A stretch of DNA of 64,000 bases from contig NZ_VOUA01000003.1 in the NCBI RefSeq assembly GCF_024372725.1, positions 186,001 to 250,000 of the forward strand, in the 5' to 3' direction. Below, in pieces: positions 3,015 to 56,557 of the stretch. The notes under the pieces are model-generated. The model made no database searches. It saw only the letters and a program-made list of their open reading frames with translations, and was not told where the DNA came from. The position numbers were made by a program, and so were the translations under genes. Position 1 is the stretch's first letter. Each line of letters starts with the position of its first letter. Source of the DNA: Methanosarcina sp. KYL-1. Its GTDB lineage: Archaea; Halobacteriota; Methanosarcinia; Methanosarcinales; Methanosarcinaceae.

Positions 3015-3416
3015 AAAGCAACCCCTCCCCCCTCTCCAAACACTAAAAAGTAAATAACAAAGAATAATTACGCACTTTGTATAATTATTAGTTAAGTTGG
3101 AAAGTTAATTAAAGGAAATTGAAAAAACTTAAATTCAGGTTAAAAAGAACAGCATTTATGAGAAATCCGCATTCAAGCAACCAATATAAAAAATATGGGT
3201 ATAAATATTGCATATAGAATTTTCCAAACTTTTTAACGTTACAAAAATTAAATAAAAAACAAAATATTTAATAAGCTATAACACAAACTGTGAATAAAGG
3301 AAAACAGAGTTTGTATCAGGAAAGTTGAAGGACTTATTTTTTATAGACCGGAAATTGCTGGTGGGACAGACAGTCGACTGGACTTATGTTAACAGCAGGA
3401 ATAAGTTGGTGAAAAC
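3015..3416. other. AT-rich gap upstream of the HEAT gene
   Basis: No gene is seen. The sequence is strongly AT-rich, with several TATA-like stretches (for example ataaatattgcatata near 3195-3215). It presumably carries the promoter of the HEAT-repeat gene, but no single TATA box stands out. Confidence 0.4.
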
Positions 3417-6416: not shown

Positions 6417-6842
6417 GCTTTCGGCAGGTCGACATTTAATTTTTGATGATTTCTAAAGATGGCGATTTTTAAATAATGCCCCATAATTGTGTATCCTACG
6501 TTCGGCAGGTCGACATAAGAAATCAGAATATTTTTCTTGATGCCGTTTTTGAACATTAGCTAACTATATATTAGGTTTAAAGTTAGTTAACTTGTGGCTC
6601 AACTCCCAAGACATATGTAAGCACTAAATCATTTTTTCATTAAAGTTTAGCATGAGAGCTTAATAATTAGTCATATGTAAACCTAAAAACTACACATAAT
6701 TATAGAGCATCATTTCAAAATCGCCATCATCAAAATTATTAGAATATAAATGTCGACCTGCCGAGAGTAAGGTGTATAGTTGTCAGGTTTACATATGGTC
6801 CAAACATAATCTCTCATACTAAACTTTAAGGAAAAATTAAAC
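6417..6842. repeat. Interleaved inverted-repeat cluster upstream of sugE
   Basis: Two different imperfect repeats, each about 55-70 bases, occur in opposite orientations. Repeat A starts with CGGCAGGTCGACATTTA at 6421 and contains GATGGCGATTTT; its inverted copy is at about 6711-6768. A short direct copy of the A end (TTCGGCAGGTCGACATA) is at 6502. Repeat B (TTAAAGTTTAGCATGAGAGC, then CATATGTAAACCT) lies at about 6630-6695, with an inverted copy at about 6776-6838. The order is A, A-end, B, inverted A, inverted B. No ORF is present. This may be remains of a MITE-like element or a structured leader or operator region; the role is unknown. Confidence 0.7.
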
Positions 6843-20338: not shown

Positions 20339-20476
20339 GCCCGGGGAGGCGGCTTCACCAGGCAAGGAGCCGGCTTGTTTTGAAGTGGCTCAATGCCCTG
20401 AAACCGTTAATACGCTGCTGTTCAGGTCCCCGGGCTCTCATCGGCCGCCGCAGCGGCCGGCCTTTTCCTGAAAAAA
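20339..20476 (+). ncRNA. Candidate structured RNA with terminator-like hairpin
   Basis: A closing stem of nine perfect pairs (GCCCGGGGA 20339-20347 with TCCCCGGGC 20427-20435) encloses a second stem directly abutting it (CCTGAA 20397-20402 with TTCAGG 20421-20426). A third, interrupted helix is also enclosed: AGGCA..GAGCC (about 20359-20371) with GGCTC..TGCC (about 20387-20397). Immediately downstream is CGGCCGC-CGCA-GCGGCCG followed by GCCTTTTCC, a hairpin plus T-tract. The minus strand would fold nearly as well, so strand is inferred from the T-tract. The hairpin is a relative of the first hairpin in the composite repeats at 24.8, 33.4 and 53.5 kb. No known RNA family is recognised. Confidence 0.45.
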
Positions 20477-24784: not shown

Positions 24785-25345
24785 AAAAAACGGAGGCCAA
24801 ACCTATACAACAGGATCCAGATGCTATTAAGAGAAGAGAACCCGATGCACGGAAAAATACTCCGGCTTGTCCGATCAATACTTCTCTTAACTCTGAAAAC
24901 CTTTTTTAGTCCCGTGTAAGAGGAAAAACCCCTGCCAGCTTGCCTGGCGGCGCCTTCCAAAAAGAAATAAAAAATATATCTGAAAAAGAATATTATCCAG
25001 GTTGTGGCGGTTAGCGCACTAATTTCAAATTGAATCCCTGTATTTATTCTGAACTCTTTCTTTCAGTCATCTGGCTACTCTTTTTGATTATCCCAATGTA
25101 CTTTTCAGTCATTTTGCTGTTATTTTTGGCTGGTTAAGCACATTTTTTCAGTCATCTGGCCGCTCCTTTTGGTTATTCCAATGCACTTTTCAGTCATCAG
25201 AGTGACTTTTTTATTCATCCATGTATACATCATGGAAAAGGCCGGTCAGCAAGCTGACCGGTGAGAGTGCCGGTACCTGAAAAGCAAATGAAAAAAGGTT
25301 TTATTTTTTTCGATTTAATCGAATAAATATCAACCGCGTAAGGTG
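24785..25345 (-). repeat. Composite noncoding repeat, copy 1
   Basis: Read on the minus strand it has five parts. (1) TTACGCGGTTGATATTTATT with CGATTAAA. (2) CTTTTCAGGTACCGGCACTC, leading into hairpin CCGGTCAGC-TT-GCTGACCGG and CCTTTTCC. (3) Degenerate GATGACTGAAAAG-type tandem repeats. (4) TTCAATTTGAAATTAGTGCG block. (5) GCCGCCAGGCAAGCTGGC hairpin and a tail with AAAAAAGGTTTTCAGAGTTA and GTATAGGTTTGGCCTCC. All five align in order with the plus strand at 53508-54235. There is no ORF. The flanks (24185-24784 and 25346-25759) are AT-rich and show no gene. Confidence 0.75.
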
Positions 25346-27862: not shown

Positions 27863-28097
27863 GAATTCCCATCAACTAAACAAGATATCCATGAATGAAA
27901 ATCCCCGTATACCCCGACTGAATTCCGGAACCTTCCACGAAAACTCGGGTAGGCGCTTTCCGGATTTTAGAACAGTTTTAAAACCTGTAGACTCCAGGAA
28001 GGTCCGGCTGGAGAAGATAGAAATGCCGGTCCGGGGTACAGGGATTTACGAAAATGGCTCACATGGCTGTGAAAGGCTCTGAAAATAAGCTTATCTT

Positions 28098-28272
28098 CTC
28101 CCTCTCATATTTTTTTCCTCTCATATTTTTTTCCTCTCATATTTTCTCCCTCTCATATTTTCTCCCTCTCATATTTTCTCCCTCTCATATTTTCTCCCTC
28201 TCATATTTTCTCCCTCTCATATTTTCTCCCTCTCATATTTTCTCCCTCTCATTTTCTCCCTCTCATTTTTCC
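28098..28272 (+). repeat. 17-base minisatellite
   Basis: About ten copies of TCTCCCTCTCATATTTT and close variants, with no spacers. A short hairpin CCGATGC-GAA-GCATCGG followed by CCTTTCCC lies just downstream (28361-28385); it resembles the first hairpin of the composite repeats (preceded by CTCA), but nothing else of that element follows. Confidence 0.85.
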
Positions 28273-28489
28273 CTTTCACGGAACTTTTTTTCCATGCCTG
28301 TGGAGGTGCAAACCCTCAAAAAACCGTTTTTCTTCCCGCTTTGCTAAACCCCGCAAACTCACCGATGCGAAGCATCGGCCTTTCCCGGAAAAGTACAAAA
28401 ATCGAGTTGTTTGAGCAGGAATTGTTTAGCTTGAGTGTCACTTATAAAAATTTAAGATAGAATTAAGCCATACAGCAGATATTTAAACA

Positions 28490-33243: not shown

Positions 33244-33439
33244 GACACCCTGTATATCTTTCAGATATAAGGTTTTTTTGGATTTTTTTCAAAGTTTGTT
33301 CATCTGTTATTACATTATTTATATTTTAATCCGGGGAAAAGTTTGTATTTCAGTCCGGATAAAGTAACCGTAATTATATTGTTCAGTCATCCATGGAAAC
33401 CTTTTTCGACACCATTTTCGACACCATTTTCGACACCTT

Positions 33440-33905
33440 TTTCAGACACCTTTTTCAGGCACCTTCGCTCTCACCGGCTGCTTTGCAGCTGGTTTTTCCA
33501 AAGTATATTCGTATGCTAAAAAACTTATCATGATAACTTAAAACTGTATTGTAATAACTAAAAAGTTCATCCCGATGACTGACTATATTGGAATCTCCAA
33601 AATGAATAGCAGGCTGGCTGAAAAAATTGGGTTTGCCAAAGAAGGTAGAAAGTAAAAGCGATCTGAAGATAGTGAAAGCGATCTGAAGATAGTGAAAGCG
33701 ATCTGAAGTAACAGCAATCGGAAAAAAGGCAGGGATGTAAATAAAGCAAAGACCGATAAAGCCTGAAAAATACTCTTTTCCATATCTATGTTTTATTTCC
33801 TTTTGGGGAGGCGCCGCCAGGCAAGCTGGCGGGGGCATTCCTATAACTCCTAGACTGAAAACCTATTTTCGGAACAAGGGTAGTATTTCTTTGTTCAGGT
33901 ATATT
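33440..33905 (+). repeat. Composite noncoding repeat, copy 2
   Basis: It starts with TTTTTCAGGCACCTTCGCTC and TCACCGGCTGC-TTT-GCAGCTGG plus TTTTTCC (33452-33500). An AT-rich part follows with AATAACTAAAAAGTTCATCC and a 20-base tandem repeat (AGATAGTGAAAGCGATCTGA, three copies, 33650-33710). Next comes the second hairpin GGCGCCGCCAGGCAAGCTGG (33811-33835) and a tail with ACTGAAAACC. It has the same order of parts as the copies at 24785 and 53508, but a different internal tandem repeat. Direct ACACCATTTTCG repeats precede it (33410-33450). Confidence 0.7.
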
Positions 33906-33963: not shown

Positions 33964-34365
33964 CTATACCAGATCCGAAATAAATAGAGGAATCTCATCA
34001 TCCCCAACGGTGAAACCACAATTCTTATAAAAATTAACTTTGTTTGAATATTAAATTACAACCTGTGTTCTACACCTGGAATATTTATCAGTCATCATTT
34101 TTACGAGAGTTGCACCGATTTTTTGCTTATGGTATTCCGGCCTGACTAAAAGGTAGTGATAGTAAACTGTCATAACCCCATCGGACAGGGCGTTCATGAG
34201 CCCAACCAATTTGTCCCCATCCCATGCTGTATAAACGGAATGTGAGTTTGCAATTGCTAACTGCAGTTCTTGCGGATACTTTGCCGACTCCCATTCAACA
34301 GACTTAAACAGAGAAACAAGCCTTTCTATTTCGATATTTTTATCATCAGAATATCTTATGTTCAT
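33964..34365 (-). pseudogene. GNAT acetyltransferase gene interrupted by TAA
   Basis: From the ATG at 34365 the protein reads MNIRYSDDKNIEIERLVSLF and shows the GNAT core: the acetyl-CoA site 'VRPEYHKQKIGATLVKMMTD'. It stops at an in-frame TAA (34051-34053) after TQVVI. The same frame goes on without another stop as YSNKVNFYKNCGFTVGDDEI and PLFISDLV, which is the normal GNAT end (the FY..CGF motif). A single nonsense change, or a sequencing error, thus removes the last part. The end lies about 60 bases beyond a composite repeat. An upstream extension to 34533 is open but runs over the neighbouring promoter and is not used here. Confidence 0.75.
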
Positions 34366-34478
34366 ACTTTTCCGTTTCCTTTCCTTATCCCTTACTTGCT
34401 TTCTTCTTGATGTTTTTCCTATAATTAATCCTTTTACTTTTATTATTTTATCTTTTTTCAAATAAAAATAGAAAGTGC

Positions 34479-34490
34479 TATATATTTTAT
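34479..34490 (+). promoter_or_regulatory. TATA box of cam
   Basis: CTATATATTTTAT, about 30-40 bases before the ATG. The ribosome-binding site CGGAGG (34508-34513) follows, so the leader is short. Confidence 0.5.
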
Positions 34491-34519
34491 ATTCTTCACA
34501 ATGTGAACGGAGGATTGTT

Positions 34520-35269
34520 ATGAGGTTTGACAAAAAGGTCTGTATAGTCCTTATTCTGTCCCTGGTGCTGGCCCTTGCCGGGAGCGGTTGCGTCTCCCAG
34601 GGAGAAGGAGCAGAAGAAGGAGAACACGCGGAAACTGCGGTCGAGGGTTCGGCCTCGAATGTCTGGGCGAATCCCGTGACCCCCTGGAATCCCGAACCGA
34701 CTGAGCCGACGATCGATTCGACTGCCTACATCCACCCCCAGGCGTCGGTTATCGGAGATGCGACGATCGGGGCCAGGGTCATGGTCTCTCCCTTCGCTTC
34801 GGTCCGGAGCGACGAAGGAATGCCGATTTTTGTCGGGGATGAAAGCAACATCCAGGACGGGGTTATACTCCACGCCCTTGAGACAATCGACGAAGAAGGC
34901 GAGCCTGTGGAAAGCCACATTATTGAAGTTGACGGGGAAGAATACGCTGTCTACGTGGGAGAACGGGTTTCCCTTGCCCACCAGGCCCAGATCCACGGCC
35001 CTGCTTACGTTGGCGATGATACTTTCATCGGCATGAAGGCGATGGTCTTCAAGGCAAAGGTCGGAAACAACTGCGTGCTTGAGCCTACTTCAGCTGCAAT
35101 CGGCGTGACCATCCCTGACGGCAGGTACGTCCCGGCAGGCACCGTGGTCACTTCCCAGGCCGAGGCTGACAAACTACCTGAAATAACGGACGACTACGCC
35201 TACAGGCACACCAACGAAGCCGTTGTGTACGTCAACGTCAACCTGGCCGACGGTTACAACGCAGTGTAA
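34520..35269 (+). CDS. cam: Gamma-class carbonic anhydrase, exported
   Basis: 249 residues; interconverts CO2 and bicarbonate. It is a left-handed beta-helix of hexapeptide repeats (for example ASVIGDATIGARVMVS). The three metal ligands are His118, His154 and His159, with the same 36/5 spacing as His81/His117/His122 of Methanosarcina thermophila Cam. The catalytic Glu62, Glu84 and structural Arg59 equivalents are Glu99, Glu121 and Arg96, and the acidic loop after Glu121 is present, which marks true Cam rather than CamH. The N-terminus is a lipoprotein-like signal (LALAGSGC, Cys24), so it acts outside the membrane, where it helps acetate-grown cells remove CO2. The ATG at 34520 has a strong CGGAGG site; an upstream in-frame start is not needed. 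Confidence 0.95.
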   Translation: MRFDKKVCIVLILSLVLALAGSGCVSQGEGAEEGEHAETAVEGSASNVWANPVTPWNPEPTEPTIDSTAYIHPQASVIGDATIGARVMVSPFASVRSDEGMPIFVGDESNIQDGVILHALETIDEEGEPVESHIIEVDGEEYAVYVGERVSLAHQAQIHGPAYVGDDTFIGMKAMVFKAKVGNNCVLEPTSAAIGVTIPDGRYVPAGTVVTSQAEADKLPEITDDYAYRHTNEAVVYVNVNLADGYNAV

Positions 35270-36997: not shown

Positions 36998-37090
36998 GGC
37001 ATGAGAAGTGAATCGGATATCAATAAACCTGATGTAAAGGCTTTTTTAGGGCTCAGCTTTTCCTTTTTTATGGCTCTTTCTTCCTTTTTT

Positions 37091-37222
37091 AGGGTCCTGT
37101 TTTCTCTGTTTTAGGGTCCTGTTTTCTCTGTTTTAGGGTCCTGTTTTCTCTGTTTTAGGGTCCTGTTTTCTCTGTTTTAGGGTCCTGTTTTCTCTGTTTT
37201 AGAGTCCTGTTTTTCCTGTTTT
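37091..37222 (+). repeat. 22-base minisatellite
   Basis: Five perfect copies of AGGGTCCTGTTTTCTCTGTT(TT) and a diverged sixth. It lies shortly after the small gene at 36749 and may sit at its transcript end, since the T-rich unit resembles archaeal termination signals. Confidence 0.88.
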
Positions 37223-37361
37223 TCCCAGAATATTTCCAGTACTCTGGAATCCCGGGGTGCAGGTTTGATTGTTTCCTCCCCAAACCCGGATCATCGGAAA
37301 ACTTTCCTGCCTTTTCTTAATAGAAGTTCCATAACCCTTAATTCTCCTTAAACAAATATCT

Positions 37362-37545
37362 CATAAAGGACTTAGATCTCATAAGGGACATGGATCTCAT
37401 AAGGGACATGGATCTCATAAGGGACATGGATCTCATAAGGGACATGGATCTCATAAGGGACATGGATCTCATAAGGGACATGGATCTCATAAGGGACATG
37501 GATCGCATAAGGAACTTTGAGATCTCATAAGGGACTTAGATCTAC
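37362..37545 (+). repeat. 18-base minisatellite before the methionine gamma-lyase gene
   Basis: About eight copies of ATCTCATAAGGGACATGG, with diverged copies at both ends (GACTTAGATCTCATAAGG). The array ends about 40 bases before the start codon of the next gene, so it replaces the normal promoter/leader region. Confidence 0.88.
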
Positions 37546-39391: not shown

Positions 39392-39514
39392 ATGGGGTGC
39401 CGGAAGTGAAGGAAGTGATATAACTGTTAAAACCGTGTACAATGATTTTTCGAGAGTAGCATCCCGATAAAGAGTTGTGGGTGTTTGTGTCCCGGGTGAT
39501 TTGAGCAAATATAC

Positions 39515-39598
39515 GCATAGTTTCATGTATAGTTTCATGTATAGTTTCATGTATAGTTTCATGTATAGTTTCATGTATAGTTTCATGTATAGTTTCAC
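39515..39598 (+). repeat. 12-base minisatellite
   Basis: Seven copies of ATAGTTTCATGT, ending ATAGTTTCACGG. It lies between the DJ-1/PfpI gene and the promoter of rio2. Confidence 0.88.
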
Positions 39599-39640
39599 GG
39601 TTTTTCCAGTCCGAAATAGGATAAGCGTCCTGAGAGCGAT

Positions 39641-46468: not shown

Positions 46469-46573
46469 GTAGAGGTATTGGGGTTTTTCCGGCTTAAGGT
46501 TTTTCGATCTGCTTCACAGTACCAGAACTCTCACCGGGTGGCCGTCCACATAAAATATAAAATGACCGGATTT

Positions 46574-46672
46574 TAAAATTCAAGTCCTCTTGAGGGAGTG
46601 TAGCGAGCGAAAAGGATCGCGGACTGCAGAGCCGCAACTCTGCTGACGAAGGAGGCCGGCCTTTTCTTTAAA
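46574..46672. other. GC-rich palindromic segment in the gap
   Basis: GCAGAG-CCGCA-ACTCTGC (about 46626-46643) and an end GGCCGGCCTTTTC identical to the tail of the hairpins at 20.4 and 53.6 kb. It is probably another short intergenic repeat. The remaining gap to 46832 is AT-rich (TTATTTATATTTTATTG near 46775 is a likely promoter for the next gene). Confidence 0.45.
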
Positions 46673-52659: not shown

Positions 52660-52740
52660 GCTCGATGTATTGGTTCAGATGTATTGGTTCGGATGTGGTG
52701 GCTCGATGTATTGGTTCAGATGTATTGGTTCAGATGTAGT
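52660..52740 (-). repeat. 13/14-base minisatellite between tsr3 and the LOG-like gene
   Basis: Six units alternating between ACATCTGAACCAAT (14) and ACATCGAGCCACC (13), read on the minus strand. The first unit overlaps the stop codon of tsr3 (ATC TGA), so the array appears to have grown from the end of that gene. Confidence 0.85.
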
Positions 52741-53251
52741 GGCTCTGGATTTCCACAATTTCAGTGCTGTTTCTGGCTTTTGAGTAATCCTCCAGAGGTT
52801 CGTGGTTCAGCTCAAGGAAACTGTGTCCCCAGTTGAACTTCGAGAGGACTTTTTCGGCCTGCTCTTTGTATCCCAGGATGTAAAGGGCTGCAGCGAAGGC
52901 TTCGGCGGAATTGAGCTTTAAGGGCCTTCCGAAGTTAACCGGGTTGCCTGCAAGGAGGTAAGGCAGAGCCCTGTGCTGCAGGTCAAGCTTTTCCAGCTCC
53001 GGAAAGACCCTTTCGACCTCCTCCCAGGAGCAGTCAAGCACGATAATCCCCCTCCCCGGGTTGTCAGCCGGAGATAAGGCTTTTTCGGCAAAGGGATCCA
53101 TGAGAATTGCGGAGCGAGGCAGTTTCGAAACCTTATCAAAAAGGCGGGCAAGCTCGAAACGTGCCATTTTTCTTCCCGTGCATTTTTTCGGGTCGCACTG
53201 CCCGGCATGGTAAATATAAAGGGGAATGTCTCGTTGCTTTATCGAATTCAT
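52730..53251 (-). CDS. tsr3: Tsr3-type rRNA aminocarboxypropyltransferase
   Basis: 173 residues, the size of archaeal DUF367/Tsr3. It shows [16 protein letters not shown] at the N-terminus, LDCSWEEVE and the SAM-site region [20 protein letters not shown]. Tsr3 transfers the aminocarboxypropyl group of S-adenosylmethionine to a small-subunit rRNA base in ribosome maturation; in archaea this is known or inferred for 16S rRNA. It is the upstream gene of a pair with the LOG-like gene. A T-rich low-complexity run (TTTGTTTACC type, 53290-53400) precedes it. Confidence 0.9.
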
Positions 53252-53507
53252 CGGTGATCCTCTGGAATGTGAAGGTTACAGGTTTTATTTATTTCTTGTT
53301 CAGGTGTTTCCTTGTTTGTATGTTTCTTTGTTTACCTTTTCTTTGTTTACTTTCCTTTTTTACCTGTTTATTTACCTGTTTCGTTTGTTTATCTTTTTTC
53401 TTCTATCCCGAATAACAGGGAAATGCTTTGAGGCCCAAGAGCAGGGAACATGTCCTGGGGATATTTTCCTGAAAAAATAGATCGAGCTGTAATAGCTACG
53501 GTATTCA

Positions 53508-54235
53508 TCCACTTTACACGGTTGATATTTATTCGATTAAACAGAACAGAATAAAACTTTTTTCAATCTGCTTTTCAGGTACCGACACTCTCACCGGCCG
53601 CGAAGTCGGCCGGCCTTTTCTATAAAATGTATATGTAAGAGCAAAAGAGTAGCAGACTACTGAGTAGTATATTAGGATAACTCAAAAGGGCATTGTGATG
53701 ACTCAAAAGGGCATTGTGATGACTCAAAAGGGTATTGTGATAACCAAAAAGGGTATTGTGATGACCAAAAAGGGCATTGTGATGACTCAAAAGGGTATTG
53801 TGATGACCAAAAAGGGCATTGTGATGACCAAAAAGGGTCTGTGATGACCAAAAAGGGTATTGTGATGACCAAATAGGGTATGTGATAACCAAAAAGAGCC
53901 TCCGGTTGACTGAAAGGAAGAGTTCCGAAAAAAATACAGGAATTCAATTTGAAATTAGTGCACTAGCCGTCACAAACTAAAAAATATAAATATAGTTCTC
54001 ATCTATATTTTTTCATTTATATTTATCTTCCATATTTCTTTCATTTCTTTTTGGGGAGGCTCCGCCAGGCAAGCTGGCGGGGGTATTTTGTGACATTTGG
54101 ATTGAAAAAGGTTTTCGGGGTTAAGAGAAGCATTTCTCGATCCAGGCGGAGTATAAGTAAAATATTCTCCACAGTATTCTGGTTCATTCTCCACAGCATT
54201 CAGGTTCTTTTGAAAGTATTGGGTTTGGTCTTATG
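53508..54235 (+). repeat. Composite noncoding repeat, copy 3 (longest)
   Basis: Parts in order: TTTACACGGTTGATATTTAT (53512); CTTTTCAGGTACCGACACTC leading to hairpin CCGGCCG...CGGCCGG and CCTTTTC (53570-53620); about ten copies of a 21-base tandem repeat (GATGACCAAAAAGGGTATTGT type, 53680-53895); CAATTTGAAATTAGTGCACT block (53943-53970); hairpin CCGCCAGGCAAGCTGGCGG (54062-54082); and the tail AAAAGGTTTTCGGGGTTAAG to GTATTGGGTTTGGTC. The minus strand of 24785-25345 matches all of these in order, and 33440-33905 matches the main ones. No frame shared by the copies is coding. Confidence 0.78.
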
Positions 54236-54992
54236 ATTCTACCGCTATTCTTCTTCCTGCGGCAGGATGGCTATAAGCGCATTTTCTGTGGGAAAAAAGG
54301 TAGTAAGAAATTATTTACGGATACTTCAAAATAATAACTTCAAAATAATATCAACTGATCCACCGGGGGTCTATTAAGCCTTTTTTGAGAATTAAAAATG
54401 AACTAGTTTATATAAAATGGTTAATATATATTTATATATCACTACTCAAAATCTGATCAAATCCGATCAAATGTGAAAGGGCATTTAACATATATTGAAA
54501 CGTTGAAACAAAACAGGTACTAAAAACCCTTTCTCTATTTTGATGTAGTGATGCATAACTGAAGAATTTCAATATCGCCTGCGTCATGCCAGGTACCTGC
54601 AGCAGTGGAAATGATACCGTTTCAGCCCGTCACCTTTCGTAAAGGGTCTATCCCAAAAACGGGGATTGGCGGGACGAGCTGTATTACATTCGTGGTTTAT
54701 TCACCTATGCACTGCTCCCGGCAGGAGAACGTATCCGTCTTTATAAGTGGGGAAAGACGGTATTGCTTCTTGACTCTGGCTTTGTTATAGTTGCAATTAT
54801 CCCGGGATAGGGAGCCCGTGGTTAAGGAAAAATGGGAGATAAATGAGGCATCCGTTAAGACCTCCTTAACTACCTGAACCTGCACCTGAACCTGGGCAGC
54901 GTACAGAGCGGATGGTATTGACGTTGTACTGACGTTGTACTGAAGTTGTACTGACGGACAGGCACTCAAAGGAATTCTGGAGGTACAGATAA
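54236..54992. other. Gap upstream of the HdeD cluster
   Basis: There is AT-rich DNA with TATATATTTATATATC near 54425-54440. The GC-richer part 54560-54830 contains only a 61-codon frame I cannot assign. A small 12-base repeat (TGTACTGACGT type) lies at 54915-54955. The ribosome-binding site CTGGAGGT for the next gene is at 54978. Confidence 0.4.
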
Positions 54993-55541
54993 ATGGAACA
55001 AACAACTGCTGCAGCTTATGGGGGTGGGTATGAAGTACTGGATGTACCCTGGTGGGCAGTTCTTCTGGAGGGAATTGTCGCCCTCATTATAGGTTTATTC
55101 CTGTTATTCACCCCGGGAGCCACCACTGTGGTGCTTTTACAGGTTCTCGCAATCTTCTGGATTATCGGAGGCATCTTTTCGATCGTAGGGCTCCTGATAA
55201 ACAGGGAAAGCTGGTTCTGGAAGCTGGTGTCGGGTGTCCTGAGCATCCTTGCCGGAGCCGTGATACTGATTTACCCGGTCTTAAGCCCCTTCATCGTCCT
55301 TACATTATTCATCATCTTTATCGGGGTCTGGGCTATCATTGCCGGGGCTATCAAAGTCGCCTGGTCATTCAAGGGAGGCGGATGGGGGATGGGACTCCTG
55401 GGTGTCCTTACCATTATCCTGGGCTTGCTGTTACTGGTTAACCCGATGTCCGGTATCCTTGTCCTGCCGTGGATATTCGGGATTTTCCTGATTGCAGGAG
55501 GAATCGGGGGAATCATCGGAGGACTTAAAATGAGGTCCTGA
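54993..55541 (+). CDS. HdeD/DUF308 family membrane protein
   Basis: 182 residues with six membrane helices in three pairs; the repeated pattern ('W..LL.G...I..G..LL..P', 'ILAGAVILIYPVLSPFIVL') is that of HdeD/DUF308, linked to acid resistance in enteric bacteria. The archaeal role is not known. GGAGGT lies nine bases before the ATG. It is first in a same-strand series with short gaps (38 bases to the next gene), so it is probably the first gene of an operon. Confidence 0.85.
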   Translation: MEQTTAAAYGGGYEVLDVPWWAVLLEGIVALIIGLFLLFTPGATTVVLLQVLAIFWIIGGIFSIVGLLINRESWFWKLVSGVLSILAGAVILIYPVLSPFIVLTLFIIFIGVWAIIAGAIKVAWSFKGGGWGMGLLGVLTIILGLLLLVNPMSGILVLPWIFGIFLIAGGIGGIIGGLKMRS

Positions 55542-55579
55542 CGGGAGTAAAGGACCTGAAACATAAGGAGGTATACAAC

Positions 55580-55960
55580 ATGGAAAGACCAATCGGTGTT
55601 ACTATTCTGGCTATCGTATCTGTATTGCTGGCGGTTTTAAACGGTATTATAACGCTTCGCTTCCTGGGGTTTTTACCCTTTCTGGGGCCTCTTGATATCC
55701 GGACTTTCAACTTATGGTATGCCCTGCTGTATGGGCTGATGACCTACATATGGGTGTGGGTGGCTCGTATGCTCTGGCAGGTAGATCCGCAGGGCTGGAT
55801 GTTTCTGGCTGTTATTGCGGTATTCAATCTGTGCCTGGATTTTGTGATCCTGATTACAGGCGGTTCATGGTTTGACGTTAATTTCTCAGTCATAATTAAC
55901 GCCCTTATCCTCATCTATATCATGCTGCCGGGGGTGAGAGAGGCTTTCGGGACAGATTAA
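55580..55960 (+). CDS. Four-helix membrane protein, first tandem copy
   Basis: 126 residues with about four membrane helices and many aromatics (WYALLYGLMTYIWVWVARML). The family is not recognised. AAGGAGGT precedes the ATG. The protein at 56177 is about four-fifths identical and has the same length, so this is a recent tandem duplication. The two probably act in the same membrane process as the neighbouring HdeD protein. Confidence 0.8.
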   Translation: MERPIGVTILAIVSVLLAVLNGIITLRFLGFLPFLGPLDIRTFNLWYALLYGLMTYIWVWVARMLWQVDPQGWMFLAVIAVFNLCLDFVILITGGSWFDVNFSVIINALILIYIMLPGVREAFGTD

Positions 55961-56132: not shown

Positions 56133-56176
56133 CCTGAAGAAGGAGTTTTTCAAGACAAAAATAAGGAGAAAGGAAT

Positions 56177-56557
56177 ATGGAAAGACCTATTGGTGTTACT
56201 ATTCTAGCCATTCTGGCTGTATTGCTGGCGTTTTTAAACGGAATTGCAATGCTTCGTTTTCTTGGATTTTTGCCATTTCTCGGGCCTCTGAACATCCGTA
56301 TTTTCAACCTCTGGTATGCCCTATTGTACGGCCTGCTCGCCTACATATGGGTGTGGGTGGCTCAGATGCTCTGGCAGGTAGACCCGCAGGCATGGCTCTT
56401 CCTCGCTGTCATTTCAGTCTTTAACCTGTGCCTGGCTTTTGTGGTGCTGGTTACCGGAGGCTCATGGTATGACGTTAATCTGTCAGTTATCGTTAACGCC
56501 CTTGTTCTTATCTACATCATGTTACCCGGGGTGAGGGAAGCATTCGGAAGAGATTAA
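56177..56557 (+). CDS. Four-helix membrane protein, second tandem copy
   Basis: 126 residues; a paralogue of the protein at 55580 (same start MERPIGVTILAI and same end MLPGVREAFG), differing mainly in conservative changes. AAGGAGAAAGG precedes the ATG. Retention of both full-length copies suggests selection for dosage or a heteromeric complex. The family is not recognised. Confidence 0.8.
   Translation: MERPIGVTILAILAVLLAFLNGIAMLRFLGFLPFLGPLNIRIFNLWYALLYGLLAYIWVWVAQMLWQVDPQAWLFLAVISVFNLCLAFVVLVTGGSWYDVNLSVIVNALVLIYIMLPGVREAFGRD

Follow-up and report, generated by a model that had tools for sequence, protein, structure and literature searches.

The intergenic DNA at positions 53,508-54,235 of the window, by which we mean the whole 64,000-nucleotide stretch analysed here from Methanosarcina sp. 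KYL-1, raises the question of what kind of element combines hairpins, a T-tract and tandem repeats between two genes. Methanosarcina is a main model of methanogen genetics, whereas most known composite repeats of intergenic DNA, BIME and BOX among them, come from bacteria. The initial annotation described three copies of one element, at 24785-25345 (minus), 33440-33905 (plus) and 53508-54235 (plus), here copies 1 to 3, and offered a MITE-like mobile element, a family of structured RNAs with a terminator, or a chromosome-organising repeat as explanations. Our best reading, to which we assign a probability of about one half, is that these are non-autonomous interspersed mosaic elements that spread as DNA and whose hairpin modules are kept close to gene 3' ends, where they may serve 3'-end formation or insulation.

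Composite architecture and distribution

All three copies proved real and contain the same parts in the same order, as had been described: a left module (A), a spacer and a right module (B), with a central block in two of the three. Module A starts with the lead AAAACCTTTTTTCAATCTG, in which five or six T stand in a row, and continues with TTTTCAGGTACCGNCGCTCTCACCGG, a hairpin and CCTTTTCC. Module B consists of GGAGGCGCCGCCAGGCAAGCTGGCGGGGG, ~25 bases and then GATTGAAAAACGGTTTCCGGGGTCAAGGGAAGTATT; in this genome GGAG precedes its hairpin, a head that A does not have. In copy 3 (plus strand) the A model matched 53553-53629 (E = 3e-25), with the T-tract lead at 53553-53571 and hairpin 1 at 53594-53613, its stem pairing 53594-53600 with 53607-53613 ahead of CCTTTTCT; module B, at 54043-54134, holds hairpin 2 (CCGCCAG-GCAAG-CTGGCGG, 54062-54080). 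The corresponding A and B matches are 33433-33508 (E = 8e-15) and 33795-33887 on the plus strand for copy 2, and 25226-25302 (E = 2e-24) and 24877-24969 on the minus strand for copy 1, the B matches having E = 8e-21 to 7e-18. Because the models were built partly from these copies, the window E-values are not independent; independent support comes from the many further copies and the common order of parts. The central block around CAATTTGAAATTAGTGC, which had been noted in two copies, is present in copies 1 (24999-25069, minus) and 3 (53929-53980, plus) and in about eleven copies genome-wide. The element had been described as having no ORF; open reading frames within the copies gave no Pfam match, on which ground a coding function was rejected, and a tRNA/tmRNA search found none.

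The number of copies was far larger than three. A DNA search found many relatives of the window copies within the same genome, and covariance models, proposed earlier as a check, gave ~135 A and 69 B matches in the 4.04-Mb genome (E <= 0.05); stretches around the matches were then used for closer analysis. The window itself contains further A modules at 20400-20476 (plus; a single module), 28321-28394 and 46494-46582. By position, the matches form ~23 A-B composites (A upstream, same strand), ~21 convergent A-A pairs and 2 clusters in reversed order; composites are mostly 0.3-0.75 kb long, and many modules are solitary. The partners of A-A pairs often belong to different A subfamilies, with differing leads and a common core, CTCTCACCGG-stem-CCGGCCTTTTCC. 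All composites checked were intergenic, and none of the modules checked lay within a gene as called by a simple codon-usage script.

Among 31 Methanosarcina genomes, matches at E <= 1e-4 were found in 26 for B and 28 for A; six other genera of the order, represented by seven genomes, contained none. B matches ranged from 0 to 61 per genome and A matches from 0 to 12 (15 at a looser threshold), except for 114 in this genome; counts elsewhere are lower bounds because the models were trained here. A scan of 84,980 species with the B core gave at least 80 matches, and those listed come without exception from records titled Methanosarcina, Methanosarcinaceae or unclassified Euryarchaeota, so that, by the matches listed, the family is likely restricted to Methanosarcina. 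The B core was absent from 2.9 million IMG/VR contigs, and viral carriage was rejected on this basis. The window copies thus belong to a large family of short non-coding repeats that is to date confined to Methanosarcina in the genomes searched and is apparently undescribed; no account of it was found in the open-access literature, subscription papers lying outside the scope of the search.

Inverted ends and spacer arrays

When the matrix of the A lead was run on the reverse complement of B, 26 of 30 copies matched, always at the same position (19-20); 23 of the 30 reversed B modules exceeded the 99th percentile of shuffles, whereas no module did so in the forward direction. The A model likewise matched the strand opposite B, in the window (E = 0.04) and in other species. 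These results indicate that A is related to reversed B and that the two modules face one another; since they share the lead at a fixed spacing, the A-B composite is bounded by imperfect terminal inverted repeats, each enclosing a hairpin. The inverted partner of the A lead in copy 3 is GATTGAAAAAGGTTTT (54100-54115, plus). These repeats, ~16-19 bp long, are clear across the family and weak in many single elements. Matching ends within an element were no closer than ends of different elements, and a within-element match was therefore rejected; the ends are a family-level feature, not fresh copies of each other. One element consists of two inward-facing hairpin modules, either A on the left with reversed B opposite or a pair of A modules that differ from each other. 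In the A-B form a related T-tract lead on the outer side of each module provides the imperfect inverted repeats, and the interior is a fast-changing spacer, here with a 21-bp palindromic array. Elsewhere in the genus B often has a different hairpin module, TTTTTGTCACGCTCGACGCAGGAGAGCGGTCTTTCC, 155-364 bp upstream (16 of 71 by a strict pattern), which indicates that the A-spacer-B plan predates the A type of this genome.

The tandem unit within the spacer had been thought to differ between copies. This is correct for additional repeats in single copies, such as GATCTGAAGATAGTGAAAGC in copy 2, but a degenerate unit of 21 bp, AAAAGGGCATTNNGATGACTGAAAAGG, is common to most A-B elements, its array in copy 3 spanning 53670-53899 (plus). 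Autocorrelation of the spacers reached 0.38-0.40 at lags 21 and 42 against a background of ~0.29, and the periodicity was seen at lags 21, 42, 63 and 84 in most A-B elements. Chance-level Rfam matches of C/D-box sRNAs on the array were rejected, as TGATGA is followed directly by CTGA with no guide between. Other intergenic tandem arrays, with unrelated units of 16, 22, 18 and 12 bp, lie at 28076-28299, 37040-37237, 37322-37537 and 39505-39612, and such arrays seem common in this genome. A 35-bp inverted repeat at 6418-6452 and 6733-6767 (83% complementary, 280 bp apart, ending in GTCGACCTGCCGA) is possibly a separate MITE-like element.

One alternative is a chromosome-organising or protein-docking repeat, in which the array of 21-bp palindromes would be an array of putative binding sites. 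The 21-bp period recurs across elements, GTCAT-N4-ATGAC occurs 12 times on both strands and never in mononucleotide shuffles, and the stems are perfect without strand bias. However, the arrays are degenerate and missing from several copies, and they were not seen in the other-species composites inspected, although BL5_bin.6 contains a similar array. Tandem arrays of unrelated units are, moreover, common in the intergenic DNA of the window, and repetition of one unit by itself raises a palindrome count. We regard this reading as unlikely.

Gains at orthologous intergenic gaps

Copy 3 lies between divergent genes, a Tsr3-type gene (52730-53251, minus) and a DUF308 gene (54993-55541, plus), which are adjacent in other species too. 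The gap between them is 1745 bp here, ~530-790 bp in nine others, 1208 bp in G003 and 3264 bp in G026. The sequence on either side of ~53422-54375 (plus; edges uncertain by tens of bases) aligns as adjoining blocks in this gap of ~ten other species. For copy 2, a gap of 1146 bp (segment 33285-34432, plus) compares with ~79 bp in most of >20 species. The segments of copies 2 and 3 are missing from the orthologous gaps and are therefore lineage-specific gains; the empty sites that the initial annotation had asked for were seen in comparisons between species. Copy 1 was rejected as a clean empty site: its gap varies between 271 and 1263 bp, further genes having been acquired at that place. Beside the DUF308 gene, a small gene of 126 aa is present as two tandem copies (55577-55876 and 56174-56473) that are 81% identical, and its copy number differs between species.

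The segment of copy 2 also holds a GNAT acetyltransferase gene (34051-34533, minus) that is absent from this gap in >20 species, which suggests that the gene was gained together with or beside the repeat; the gain thus possibly took place in several steps. The close relatives BL5_bin.6 and BM5_bin.6 carry an A or B module in opposite orientation within the gaps of copies 3 and 1, best read as independent arrivals, with inversion as a possibility. No target-site duplications or exact ends could be read at copies 2 and 3, whose flanks are too diverged to read the junctions. The closest relative over a long stretch is 76% identical, indicating that the copies are old, and recent movement was not seen. 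Dispersal as DNA is well supported.

A parent transposon with the same ends was looked for at the three Y1 transposase loci of this genome and was not found there. The flanks of these loci do not carry the family ends, on which ground an IS200/605 origin was rejected; no Y1 gene is flanked by the modules in a RAYT-like arrangement, and the sole A match lies outside the insertion sequence, beside its right end. On L283, near 3137-3205, an IS605-type element with tnpA and tnpB remnants directly adjoins an A-like module without the usual lead. An enzyme recognising single-strand hairpins could be the mobiliser, as a guess.

The MITE-like option is the best supported of those first offered: an inverted lead at both ends, empty orthologous sites and uneven copy number agree with it, although no target-site duplication or parent transposon was found. 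Archaeal MITEs (PMC10969869) are likewise short, non-coding and multicopy, with inverted ends and lineage-specific insertions, but the present family is strongly diverged, and we do not file it as a MITE because target duplication and parent could not be shown. It is also not filed as a PATE or REP member, since a defining feature of each was examined and does not hold here. PATEs of Haloquadratum (PMC3119063) are archaeal, transposase-free and heterogeneous, with palindromes near both ends, where hairpins 1 and 2 lie here, but they lack inverted terminal repeats and resemble the ends of host IS605, in contrast to the inverted lead seen here and to the IS605-type loci examined, which do not have these ends. 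REP/BIME systems with RAYT (PMC2817692) share alternating palindromic units at high copy, which this genome contains, as well as mosaics, >100 intergenic copies and palindromes kept by complementary changes, and have proposed roles in termination and chromosome organisation; the present family differs in being archaeal, in its longer modules with a T-tract lead, and in that no RAYT-like gene flanked by modules was found. REP palindromes have a conserved head of GTAG/GGAG type; of the present modules, B shows GGAG ahead of its hairpin in this genome and A shows no such head. Among pneumococcal repeats (PMC3049150), BOX has fixed end modules and variable inner repeats, SPRITE comprises terminator-like repeats enriched at gene 3' ends, and BOX, RUP and SPRITE all proliferated long ago; these are bacterial, no sequence relation to them is shown, and here both traits occur in one element. 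We class the family as a variant of the interspersed mosaic or MITE-like kind.

Hairpin retention and gene 3' ends

Compensatory change had been proposed for the stems. It is evident in hairpin 1, which is highly variable in sequence with 91% of cells paired over 29 copies, and in which 36 double-change cells were counted, a number reached by 0 of 500 shuffles, but not in hairpin 2, which is nearly invariant. The A stems of 74 copies contain 559 Watson-Crick pairs, 6 G-U and 9 A-C, so that the covariation gives no reason to favour RNA of this strand, and comparing the two mismatches as a test for the RNA strand gave no signal; upkeep of a DNA palindrome explains the covariation of hairpin 1 as well. 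Two close relatives have an orthologous A module with wholly different yet perfectly paired stems (window 20400-20476; L410), CCGGTCGTC-GAA-GACGACCGG in BM5_bin.6 and CGGCCGC-CGCA-GCGGCCG here, so the entire stem has been replaced with its pairing preserved. Elsewhere in this genome the same A stem occurs with loop GAA or loop TTC (e.g. C10:6588 and C17:14262), as though the hairpin had been inverted in one piece.

The B core shows 96% identity to the consensus in this genome, compared with 75% for the aligned remainder (p = 2e-9). At one locus (C6:126632), B adjoins the same gene end in six species, although the sequence upstream of it can no longer be aligned: of the hairpin columns 16 of 19 are invariant, compared with 16 of 250 upstream. 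Several further B loci are common to different species. Such retention is hard to explain otherwise than by selection acting on the hairpin in place, conversion between copies being the main alternative. A MITE-like or PATE-like family that is wholly selfish, serves the host in no way and is positioned only where insertions are tolerated would fit the empty sites, the strictly intergenic places, the inverted ends and the species-specific amplification. It is at odds with the conservation of the B hairpin at orthologous places and with the difference between core and remainder, since neutral relics would be expected to decay evenly, and we consider it possible but doubtful.

Outside this genome, in the other species, 39 of 51 B modules have a lead-side gene that runs toward them (44% expected, p = 2.8e-6), and 27 of 51 have such a gene on the far side (p = 0.2); B usually lies ~65-300 bp from the stop codon. 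The lead-side orientation holds in this genome for 30 of 45 B modules (p = 0.001) and 49 of 90 A modules (p = 0.02), A being only weakly tied to gene 3' ends. Copy 3 is an exception, located at no gene's 3' end. A simple convergent-terminator reading was rejected, as a same-strand gene precedes just 54% of A modules. Selection against insertion into promoters could alternatively produce the bias. In the accounts cited here, archaeal termination relies on U-tracts with the nuclease aCPSF1 (PMC8716108, PMC7515710).

The idea that these are structured RNAs or terminators is thus partly supported: B is kept at orthologous gene ends and oriented to gene 3' ends, but the covariation does not show RNA to be the molecule selected. 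Its strict form, in which structured RNAs or signals of the 3'-UTR or terminator type are inherited vertically and do not move, draws on this orientation, the covarying stem, the T-tracts beside hairpins and the B loci common to species. We find it quite unlikely, given the gains in this lineage at two sites, the ~46% of A modules without a preceding same-strand gene, the lack of a G-U excess over A-C, and Rfam 15, in which no curated family matched and searches at the gathering score and at E up to 10 gave chance-level matches only.

We return to mosaic elements with retained hairpin modules. Comparison of orthologous gaps shows that segments insert into intergenic DNA lineage by lineage, reaching very different copy numbers per species; the hairpin cores are kept after arrival as the remainder decays. 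Modules tend to lie beyond gene 3' ends, a bias stronger for B than for A, with the lead beside the stop codon and the hairpin further out. The T-tract and hairpin may end or stabilise transcripts, and could be kept because they help to end or trim transcripts and separate convergent transcription, in which case a mobile repeat would have been reused as a 3'-end module. More tentatively, and with less confidence than in the reading as a whole, the family might be a mobile mosaic of archaea, to date seen in Methanosarcina alone, that swaps its hairpins stem by entire stem, changing the sequence without losing the pairing, even where the site is orthologous. The hairpins would have been domesticated as signals for gene 3' ends or insulation, each species repeatedly rewiring gene ends with its own amplified module type.

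The family needs to be annotated, since some of the long intergenic DNA in Methanosarcina consists of it. With >100 modules in one archaeal genome, and with placed gains and conserved old copies in one genus, it lets the timing of the passage from mobile repeat to gene-end signal be tested directly.
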